NCBI GenBank assembly: GCA_902569115.1
Contig: CACFTI010000010.1
Coordinates: 1 to 64,000 of the forward strand
Origin: an uncultured Verrucomicrobiota bacterium
GTDB lineage: Bacteria > Verrucomicrobiota > Verrucomicrobiia > Opitutales > Seribacteraceae
Reading direction: 5' to 3'
DNA: 64,000 bases
Positions 16,336-19,744 of the stretch are shown one piece after another. Both the position numbers and the translations under genes were made by a program. The notes beneath the pieces are model-generated. The model saw only the letters and a program-made list of their open reading frames with translations. It did no database searches and was not told the origin of the DNA. Position 1 is the stretch's first letter; every line of letters begins with the position of its first letter.

Positions 16336-16503
16336 ATCCTAATTTCGTAGATTCTAGTATTTAAGATCAAGATCAATGAGTAAGGGTAGATATTTTTTAA
16401 TCAAATAGAAGGAAAAGATTTTGGTTTAGGCCTCTTAATGATGCTGGAGATTTCTCTTAAATTTTTTGAAAAATGGCATATTTATCGGTATATTAGTCTA
16501 ATA

Positions 16504-16746
16504 ATGAAAAAAGAACGCGAAGCACCATTAGAAGAATTCAAGTTTCATTATCACTTGGGAAATTCTGTAGGATCTTCGGATAAATATTTTATGGCTCACG
16601 ATTTAGACGAAGCCAGTGAAATGTTTACATATGCTTGCTCGAAAAGGCACTTGGATCCCCACTTAACCAGAGTAGAAAAATGGAACCGTTGGAAAAGGGA
16701 TTGGGAAAATATTGAGCCCCTTCCTCCCTGCCCAACCTTGAATTAA
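16504..16746 (+). CDS. Small unknown protein, paralogue A
   Basis: Eighty residues from the ATG at 16504, the start matching its paralogue at 17740-17982; an in-frame ATG at 16438 gives 102 residues with a hydrophobic front end. Both proteins start MKK-acidic and then have an F/Y-x-Y-rich beta-hairpin-like part, an alpha helix with A-x-x-M-F-x-x-A-C (A-S-E-M-F-T-Y-A-C here), and a C-terminal V-x-x-W-N-R-W-x-x-x-W-E. Conservation at this spacing argues that both are real proteins. No known domain is recognised. Its end overlaps the convergent phosphatase gene by 4 bases. Confidence 0.65.
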   Translation: MKKEREAPLEEFKFHYHLGNSVGSSDKYFMAHDLDEASEMFTYACSKRHLDPHLTRVEKWNRWKRDWENIEPLPPCPTLN

Positions 16747-17600: not shown

Positions 17601-17739
17601 CTTTTGGTCAGGGATTTATAGAATACTCTATCATTATATTTATTATTGCTAATGAACTGAAATGAGGACTTACTTTAACTTTTTAGATGAAAAATCGAAA
17701 ATAATAGGAAATATATTCTTAAGTAGAGTATGTTCATAT

Positions 17740-17982
17740 ATGAAAAAAGATGAAGAAAGTCTAAGTGTTAATGATTATAGGTTTAATTATCGACAAACAG
17801 GAGACGAACTTTTTTCGGAAAGGCATTTTTCAGCCCCAAATCCGATTGTTGCACGGCAAATGTTTGACCTAGCCTGCAAGAAAGATGATCTTGTCGCGGA
17901 TGAAGTTGATATGGCTGTATGGAATCGTTGGGCAAACCGGTGGGAGGAAGTTTCCACTGAAGAATTATCAGATACCGATTGA
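17740..17982 (+). CDS. Small unknown protein, paralogue B
   Basis: Eighty residues from the ATG at 17740, aligning end to end with the 16504-16746 product: acidic start, an R-F-N-Y-R strand-like part, A-R-Q-M-F-D-L-A-C helix, then V-W-N-R-W-x-x-R-W-E-E. Longer in-frame starts begin at 17662, but the shared MKK start and end points favour 17740. It is acidic and soluble, and no family is recognised. The two copies have diverged, so the duplication is not recent. Confidence 0.65.
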   Translation: MKKDEESLSVNDYRFNYRQTGDELFSERHFSAPNPIVARQMFDLACKKDDLVADEVDMAVWNRWANRWEEVSTEELSDTD

Positions 17983-18051: not shown

Positions 18052-19185
18052 ATGAAAAGTTCCTTTATTCTTGAGAAGAACGATGTAGTCGGTGGTCCTC
18101 GGGCAGGCATGCTGACTCTGCCCAGCGGAATCGTTCCCACCCCAGTATTCATGCCGGTGGGTACCCAAGCTACGGTGAAAGGGACATTGCCACAGGATCT
18201 TCACAAGGTTGTGAAATGTCCCATTATTCTCGGAAATACTTATCATCTAAACTTGCGTCCTGGTGTGGATATTGTCCGTAAGGCGGGGGGCTTGAGTAAA
18301 TTTATGAACTGGAATGGACCAGTCCTTACTGATTCAGGAGGATTTCAGGTCTTCAGCTTATCTAAACTTAGGAAAATTGATGATCAAGGAGTTCGCTTCC
18401 GGTCTCATCTGGATGGAATGGAAATCTTTCTTGGACCCAACGAGTCCATTGATATTCAGGATGGTCTGCATTCTGATATTGCAATGTGTCTGGATGAATG
18501 TCCAGCCGCGGAAGCCACCCGCGAGGAAGTGCAGGCAGCCACTGACCGTACCACCCTGTGGGCCGGGCACTGCTTTCAGCACTGGCAAAATCAAAAATGT
18601 AATCAGGATGGCCGTATGCTTTTTGGAATAGTCCAAGGGGGGCGGTTTGAAGATTTACGGATTAAGTCTGCCGAAGAATTGATTGCTTTTGATTTTCCCG
18701 GATATGCGATTGGTGGTGTCAGTGTCGGGGAGACGGAAGAGGAAATGCTCGAACAGGTAAAGTGGTGTACCTCCGTCCTCCCCGAGGGTAAGCCCCGATA
18801 TGTAATGGGCGTGGGCACCCCACCTCAGCTTTTATCTATGGTGGGAATGGGGGCGGATATGTTTGACTGTGTAATGCCCAGTCGTGCAGCTCGTCATGGT
18901 ATGGCTTTCACGAAGGATGGAACCCTCAACCTACGAAACGAAAAATTTAAGGAAGATCTTTCTCCACTCGATCCCTCCACAGACTGTTATGTATCCAATG
19001 AATTTACCAAGTCCTACCTGCGTCATTTAATCATGGCCAAGGAATCTTTGGCTGGAGTGCTTCTTACCCTTCATAATCTGAGGTTTTTTGTCGAGTTGAT
19101 GGAGAAGGCCAGGGAACGAATTGTGAACGGAACTTTCTCCGATTGGTCAGCTGAATGGATCGCCCACTACCTGTATGGTAAATAA
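18052..19185 (+). CDS. tgt: Queuine/preQ1 tRNA-ribosyltransferase
   Basis: A 377-residue enzyme exchanging G34 for the preQ1 base in tRNAs with GUN anticodons. The general base region DSGGFQVFSL (D94) and the nucleophile in MFDCVMPSR (D272) are present, as is SDIAMCLDECP. In the family's C-terminal zinc site (Cys318, Cys320, Cys323, His349 in the Zymomonas enzyme) this protein has Thr310, Cys312, Ser315 and His341, so two of four zinc ligands are lost. The ATG at 18052 is preferred over an upstream TTG at 18016. No other queuosine genes lie in the window. A strong terminator follows. Confidence 0.95.
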   Translation: MKSSFILEKNDVVGGPRAGMLTLPSGIVPTPVFMPVGTQATVKGTLPQDLHKVVKCPIILGNTYHLNLRPGVDIVRKAGGLSKFMNWNGPVLTDSGGFQVFSLSKLRKIDDQGVRFRSHLDGMEIFLGPNESIDIQDGLHSDIAMCLDECPAAEATREEVQAATDRTTLWAGHCFQHWQNQKCNQDGRMLFGIVQGGRFEDLRIKSAEELIAFDFPGYAIGGVSVGETEEEMLEQVKWCTSVLPEGKPRYVMGVGTPPQLLSMVGMGADMFDCVMPSRAARHGMAFTKDGTLNLRNEKFKEDLSPLDPSTDCYVSNEFTKSYLRHLIMAKESLAGVLLTLHNLRFFVELMEKARERIVNGTFSDWSAEWIAHYLYGK

Positions 19186-19213
19186 AAAAGCCGGGTCATT
19201 ACCCGGCTTTTTT
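19184..19213. terminator. Bidirectional Rho-independent terminator
   Basis: Perfect hairpin AAAAAAGCCGGGT / ACCCGGCTTTTTT with a four-base CATT loop between the convergent tgt and C-type lectin genes. A and T tracts on the two sides make it usable from both strands. It begins within the tgt stop codon. Confidence 0.9.
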
Positions 19214-19234
19214 AAAATTGATAGGAACTGAAAA

Positions 19235-19744
19235 TCAGCCTTTGGGGGCTTTTAGTTCGGAATCTTTGGGACCTGCGTCTTTCGGTGCGGTACCTTTCCA
19301 TTCGCATACATATCCCTTCACTTTTCCGGAGAAATCAGTGGTGTCTGCCCATTTTCCATTCTTTCCGCTGAGGATCAGAAAGTTATGTCCGGACGCGGCA
19401 GATGGTTGCCCTTCATCCCAGTTCTTCATTTTGAAGTCCTCACCATTATCCCAAGTCCAGGTGCCCTCCTCAAACTCATCCGTGCCACCGAGCCAGATCA
19501 GGTTTCCCTTGGCCATCCTGCGCACAAATTCATTTTCCTGTGCGGTGGTGATCACCACAAGCTCTCCCCCGATATCGTCACAAGCGAATTTAGCTTCCCA
19601 CCATGTGCTGTTGGTATCGAGAAAAGCTTTGTAATGGTTGCCACGGAAGGCTACGGCATCCTTGGGTGGTTCCACCTTGTCGGCGAACAACGCTTGAGAA
19701 AGAATTGATGAAAGAAAGAGAGTGAATACGGTTTTTAATTTCAT
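19235..19744 (-). CDS. Exported C-type lectin-like domain protein
   Basis: A 169-residue protein with a Sec signal peptide (residues 1-21) and one C-type lectin fold. Hallmarks seen are WWEAKFACDDIGGELV, WLGGTDEFEEGTWTWDNGE (the W-I-G-type core), NWDEGQP and the C-terminal GYVCEW. The motif pattern resembles bacterial CTL domains. Calcium-sugar selectivity motifs such as EPN or QPD are not visible, so carbohydrate binding is uncertain. The tail is Lys/Pro/Gly-rich. It shares a bidirectional terminator with tgt. Confidence 0.85.
   Translation of the reverse strand: MKLKTVFTLFLSSILSQALFADKVEPPKDAVAFRGNHYKAFLDTNSTWWEAKFACDDIGGELVVITTAQENEFVRRMAKGNLIWLGGTDEFEEGTWTWDNGEDFKMKNWDEGQPSAASGHNFLILSGKNGKWADTTDFSGKVKGYVCEWKGTAPKDAGPKDSELKAPKG

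Follow-up and report, generated by a model that had tools for sequence, protein, structure and literature searches.

Lineage-wide loss of structural zinc ligands in a tRNA guanosine(34) transglycosylase of Verrucomicrobiota

The tgt gene and its zinc-site residues

The DNA that was analysed (the window) is a stretch of 64,000 nucleotides from an uncultured Verrucomicrobiota bacterium of the order Opitutales. It contains a tgt gene, encoding tRNA guanosine(34) transglycosylase (Tgt), which is listed together with its neighbouring features in Table 1. Residue numbers are counted from the ATG codon with which the gene starts; the mechanically derived open reading frame begins at a TTG codon (18016). 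The protein scored 465.7 bits with the TIGR00430 equivalog model, for which the curated cut-off is 306.75, and 488.3 bits with PF01702. It was the sole Tgt match in the window genome (G000; 70% complete, 97 contigs), and most genomes of the window's family likewise have a single Tgt. We also considered that a second, zinc-bearing Tgt might make the window copy dispensable, and dropped this idea because of the single match, found in a genome that is 70% complete.

Upstream of tgt, two small open reading frames flank a metallophosphoesterase gene. A comparison of the two showed homology (28% identity, E 1e-10), and neither had a Pfam match. A stem-loop flanked by A/T runs, recognized by eye directly past the tgt stop codon, might act as a bidirectional terminator for tgt and a converging gene for a C-type lectin. 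A scan for promoters and terminators gave no more than was obtained with shuffled sequences, and the stem-loop was not among its results.

Table 1. Positions of tgt, of its catalytic and zinc-slot codons, and of neighbouring features in the window
Feature	Position	Strand	Remark
Small open reading frame	16438..16746	+	Flanks metallophosphoesterase gene
Small open reading frame	17662..17982	+	Flanks metallophosphoesterase gene
tgt, tRNA guanosine(34) transglycosylase	18052..19185	+	377 aa from ATG; TIGR00430 and PF01702 matches
Asp94 codon, catalytic acid/base position (Zymomonas Asp102)	18331..18333	+	Invariant, n = 48
Asp272 codon, catalytic nucleophile position (Zymomonas Asp280)	18865..18867	+	Invariant, n = 48
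C-terminal (zinc-type) subdomain, residues 296-377	18937..19182	+	AF2 model
Thr310 (ACA), replaces zinc ligand 1 (Zymomonas Cys318)	18979..18981	+	DNA and alignment
Cys312 (TGT), aligned with zinc ligand 2, Zymomonas Cys320	18985..18987	+	DNA and alignment; Ser in 3/25 family sequences
Ser315 (TCC), replaces zinc ligand 3 (Zymomonas Cys323)	18994..18996	+	DNA and alignment
His341 (CAT), aligned with zinc ligand 4, Zymomonas His349	19072..19074	+	DNA and alignment; His in 25/25 family sequences
Stem-loop, flanked by A/T runs	19184..19215		Seen by eye
C-type lectin gene	19235..19744	-	Converges with tgt

In Zymomonas mobilis Tgt, the zinc ligands are three Cys and one His, which we take, following the preliminary description of this DNA, to be Cys318, Cys320, Cys323 and His349. 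A phmmer alignment, gap-free over this stretch, placed T, C, S and H of the window protein opposite C, C, C and H of the Zymomonas enzyme (slots 1 to 4 hereafter). The DNA and the alignment therefore agree with the preliminary description, which had put Thr310, Cys312, Ser315 and His341 at these places with an offset of 8, and a C-x-C-x2-C...H zinc site was not found in the window Tgt (T310, C312, S315, H341). Both the window protein and other Tgt without a complete site (site-less Tgt) pass the TIGR00430 cut-off, which indicates that the curated model needs no zinc site. The two catalytic residues, Asp94 and Asp272, had been described as kept, and were indeed invariant over 48 sequences; their roles as acid/base and nucleophile are those given in PMC4425180.

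Thirty-two loci group with the window's family, i.e., L001-L014 (L001 being the window's own) and L031-L048, some of which probably represent the same genome from two collections. L031-L048 were placed with the family by 63-86% identity, and four representatives also by a tree. None of the 32 loci has a Cys at slot 1 or slot 3 in the alignment. The preliminary description had named a Thr/Ser pattern shared across the lineage as support, and as regards the loss itself this support is given. The Thr/Ser pattern mostly holds in the window's family, where Thr or Ser, next to an acidic residue, prevails at slot 1 and Ala, Gly and Leu are found there as well; it did not extend to the other Opitutales families, which mostly have Leu/Met-x-Asn-x-x-Cys...His. 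The residue at position 311 is acidic in most of the family loci listed.

A shift of the ligands to other positions had also been named as a point to be checked. Over residues 285-377 of 25 family sequences, a mostly conserved Cys or His was confined to three columns, namely 312, with 22 Cys and 3 Ser, and 325 and 341, each with His throughout. The zinc-site Tgt that were read also have His at 325, and the other His of this region were at position 356 (10/25) and position 372 (3/25). A displacement of the ligands was therefore rejected, no replacement Cys or His having been found in these 25 sequences.

Distribution and history of the loss

Genomes were scanned for the intact site with an exact DNA pattern that fixed the three Cys, the Tyr, the His/Tyr and the His-Asn at their spacing. 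The reversed pattern, used as a control, had no match among the rows listed; an exact pattern may miss an intact site with an unusual neighbour. The intact motif was present in none of the 15 genomes of the window's family and in 48 of the 177 genomes of the order. Of these 48, 38 were in eight other families (f6, f9, f12, f15 and f25-f28). The other 10 were second copies in f13 and f19, as found by comparing positions with those of the Tgt matches. In an 88-row tree, the main Opitutales clade comprised 58 representatives, not one of which had the full site. The Tgt loci of the order that were read numbered 90 (L001-L030 and L111-L170); f3 and f15 lie outside this reading, yet the motif scan spanned all 177 genomes.

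Two other observations were made on these matches. By motif and position, 10/177 genomes of the order (f13 and f19) have a second Tgt with an intact zinc site. Examples are L155-L157 (in G102, G114 and G137), where the open frame is about 700 aa long; L155, which is the copy that was scanned, combines Tgt in one fusion protein with a PF05430 (Methyltransf_30) domain, presumably MnmC-like. In-frame TAG or TGA codons were seen inside the Tgt matches of G009, G043, G125, G273 and G366, for which frame errors, decay and recoding are all possible.

In a draw from the whole phylum, 173 of the 240 genomes had the intact motif (154/161 outside the class, 12/40 in other orders of the class, and 7/39 in the order, the window genome being counted). 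Among the seven motif-less genomes from outside the class, six had no Tgt match and one had a weak match only. Within the class, the motif was found in 0/23 genomes of family f29, in 5/5 of f30 and in 3/6 of f33; all three of the latter had two Tgt matches, and the four f33 copies that were read were site-less. One f29 sequence (L200) has no zinc ligand left, with Gly, a gap, Val and Gln at the four slots. The motif was present in 22 and absent from 96 of 118 Bacteroidota genomes, 117 of which had a Tgt match, the remaining one being motif-less. The Bacteroidota sequences that were read came from the 30 best and 40 lower-ranked places, which is a skewed draw; the motif scan spanned all 118 genomes. 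Outside Verrucomicrobiota and Bacteroidota, the site was intact in 51 of 51 sequences (39 from Bacillota, 11 from Desulfobacterales and 1 from Myxococcota).

The number of ligands was four in 120, three in 1, two in 88, one in 61 and none in 12 of 282 distinct sequences. As the set was selected for similarity either to the window or to Tgt models, these counts do not represent population figures. The 12 sequences with no ligand belong to lineages other than the window's family. The earlier statement that the enzyme lacks two of its four ligands is thus right for the window Tgt, but it understates the loss, because Cys312 can be Ser in the family, other families have lost other ligands, and these 12 sequences retain none. 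By sequence comparison, the loss of the structural zinc site is real and extends across the lineage; it recurs in a second phylum, and the enzyme concerned appears to be active.

The replacement residues were compared between the two phyla. Slot 1 was a large hydrophobic residue in 54/107 site-less sequences from Verrucomicrobiota and in 33/55 from Bacteroidota, and slot 2 was Asn in 63/107 and 10/55, respectively. The His of slot 4 was retained in 138 of 162 site-less sequences and was replaced by Gln in the remainder. By least-change reconstruction, the large hydrophobic residue of slot 1 was gained eleven times and lost seven times, and the Asn of slot 2 was gained three times and lost four times, the alignment of both slots being uncertain in some families owing to gaps.

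The trees were made with one representative per cluster (>78% identity, same motif), which retained 192 of the 282 distinct sequences. On the 192-row tree, which was built without the zinc-site columns and rooted among Bacillota, the least-change count was eight losses and zero gains, and another count also gave eight changes. The 88-row tree excludes f6, f7, f9, f12, f22, f25-f28 and the fused L155-L157, and includes 14 phylum rows and six outgroups. For the part comprising Opitutales, f29 and f33, the least-change number of losses was three on the 88-row tree versus two on the 192-row tree. Confining all site-less sequences to one clade was rejected (p 8e-5; 96 rows, including a selection of Verrucomicrobiota), as was one loss common to Verrucomicrobiota and Bacteroidota (AU p 4e-7; 86 rows, from which f7, f22, the fused copies and further divergent ones were excluded). 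A single loss was not rejected for Opitutales, f29 and f33 (AU p 0.449), nor for the site-less Bacteroidota as a whole (p 0.518; likewise 96 rows including a selection of Verrucomicrobiota). Since the joint clades were rejected and single losses within each group were tolerated, at least two losses are supported by the trees, and up to eight are suggested.

On the free 88-row tree, Cys312 of the window's family comes out as a re-gain after Asn. A tree held to Cys312 as a relic was slightly better than the free tree and was not rejected (p 0.53); because the relic tree is no worse, a re-gain is only one option. As judged from these trees, Cys312 need not be a relic. The groups used in the AU tests were named by trait, those for the Cys312 relic and for Bacteroidota were chosen after a tree had been seen, and all trees were quick ones.

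We consider it reasonably likely that at least two phyla lost the structural zinc independently and remade the joint in a metal-free form, distantly placed lineages of the tree converging on a zinc-free design with a large hydrophobic residue and Asn. If this is true, the rule that Tgt needs zinc would be valid for some lineages only.

Function of the enzyme and alternative readings

The dN/dS ratio of the window Tgt was 0.077 with L031 and 0.072 with L045 (0.104 and 0.083, respectively, for the C-terminal part), with synonymous sites near saturation in both comparisons; for L032 and L033, the synonymous sites were saturated across the entire gene. In the genus, QueF was present in 11/11 genomes and QueA in 8/11, with no QueA match in the window genome (70% complete) and matches in congeners. 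QueC was matched in 11/11, including the window genome, although two of these matches were weak only and one was split. An AF2 model of the window Tgt had a mean pLDDT of 91.0, with values of 93 for residues 301-310 and 92 for residues 311-320. The means of the ten-residue blocks from 301 to 370 were 92-97, and that of the last block 87. A zinc-site control (L051) gave 96 and 95 in the blocks matching 301-310 and 311-320. Superposition of the model on Zymomonas 1pud (Z 53.7, rmsd 1.4 over 371 residues) identified the Tgt fold. The AF2 input alignment contained zinc-site homologues and the model is blind to metal; the confident model of the loop therefore argues only weakly for metal-free folding.

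The kept catalytic Asp pair, the dN/dS values of 0.07-0.08, the preQ1/Q genes of the genus and the Tgt fold are all in line with the opinion, already voiced in the preliminary description, that the enzyme is probably active. We infer this activity, for which the Q-pathway genes of the genus count as indirect evidence. As judged from sequence and model, the window protein is probably an ordinary, active Tgt, the C-terminal subdomain of which holds together without structural zinc. It would exchange preQ1 at G34 of tRNAs with a GUN anticodon. The loop 305-318 and the helix of His341, which are tied to each other by zinc in the Zymomonas enzyme, would be held by packing and hydrogen bonds, and the homodimer and the contact with tRNA are presumed to be unchanged. 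The loss may have come about by drift after stabilising changes, or by zinc saving.

The window assembly is incomplete, with its 97 contigs, which would speak for a lone mutation, a mis-assembly or a sequencing error. This reading has a negligible probability and was ruled out, because the same four residues are present, with some different synonymous codons, in two other MAGs (L031 and L045, 85-86% identity) and because slots 1 and 3 are without Cys in 32/32 loci. That the gene is decaying, or that the protein has lost its Tgt activity and taken up another role, might be suspected from the disappearance of residues from a site deemed a hallmark of the enzyme class in an excerpt of PMC6165067. 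This is nonetheless very improbable in view of the low dN/dS, the invariance of both catalytic Asp, the full length of the protein, the fact that most genomes of the family have a single Tgt and the presence of Q-pathway genes in the genus; a pseudogene was ruled out by the dN/dS values and the conservation.

Cys312 and His341 are retained in the window protein and have Asp311, Thr310 and Ser315 nearby, so that weak or partial metal binding may persist. An altered, weaker metal centre, made of Cys312 and His341 with Asp311, Thr310, Ser315 or water and possibly shared across the dimer, is favoured by the conservation of Cys312 and His341 and by the acidic residue at 311 in most of the family loci listed. 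We find it unlikely, as some family members have Ser at 312, slot 1 is variable in the family and the 12 sequences from other lineages have no ligand at all. Furthermore, Asp311 is no replacement ligand, since Asp is also common at this position in zinc-site Tgt (CDC).

The loss could also belong to a wider saving of zinc that is not restricted to Tgt. This would be compatible with a Tgt that holds together without zinc, and we regard it as rather unlikely. In its favour, the bL31 domain of the genus has one Cys in 5 copies read out of 7 found (L335, L337, L338, L340 and L341), unlike the zinc form of bL31 with its four Cys, which is one of two forms of this protein. Moreover, GluRSs without a putative zinc-binding domain are listed for Verrucomicrobia, including Akkermansia muciniphila, in an excerpt of PMC4381286. 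Against it, QueC of the window genome (L331) retains its Cys cluster, and the Tgt site is missing across an order with mixed genome sizes. bL31 had no match in 4 of the 11 genomes of the genus, including the window genome, and the count rests on five of seven matches. The zinc-saving signals are thus mixed, with a kept Cys cluster in QueC versus one Cys in bL31. A Tgt holding without structural zinc, whatever the cause of the loss, remains our preferred reading.

Comparison with known systems

In published work, the barrel and the zinc-binding domain are presented as the two hallmarks of Tgt (PMC6165067), the zinc residues as highly conserved (PMC4425180), and zinc as required for Tgt activity (PMC9508795, with reference to the study of the E. 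coli enzyme by Chong et al. 1995). No description of a Tgt without zinc ligands was found in searches of the open-licence PMC literature. If whole lineages run Tgt without zinc, the metal would be a replaceable brace, and natural pairs of Tgt with and without the site would allow a direct test of how a structural metal is given up by a protein and of the effect on Q synthesis when zinc is scarce.

The window Tgt resembles Zymomonas mobilis Tgt (1pud and relatives) in its fold, with 44% identity in the structural alignment, in its catalytic Asp pair and in its length, and differs from it by Thr and Ser in place of two of the three Cys that, with one His, hold the zinc. A complete zinc site is likewise missing from the Tgt of other Opitutales, of f29, of f33 and of most sampled Bacteroidota, which have different replacements, e.g., Leu-Asn-Cys-His, Gly-Ser-Asp-His or Phe-Asn-Cys-Gln. 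In the eukaryotic QTRT2-like accessory subunit, as described in the excerpt of PMC6165067, the catalytic Asp is replaced and the zinc-binding domain is kept. The window Tgt shows the reverse pattern, with both Asp kept and an incomplete zinc site, and was not classed as QTRT2-like. Ribosomal protein S4 has zinc and non-zinc forms in different bacteria, and horizontal transfer is named for S4 in the title of PMC3087516. The excerpt of PMC4381286 describes GluRS without the zinc motif, which is also a tRNA enzyme with a lineage-wise absent structural zinc. The enzyme and the domain are unrelated to Tgt, and the zinc-free GluRS domain proved functional at the bench, whereas the zinc-less Tgt is known here from computation.
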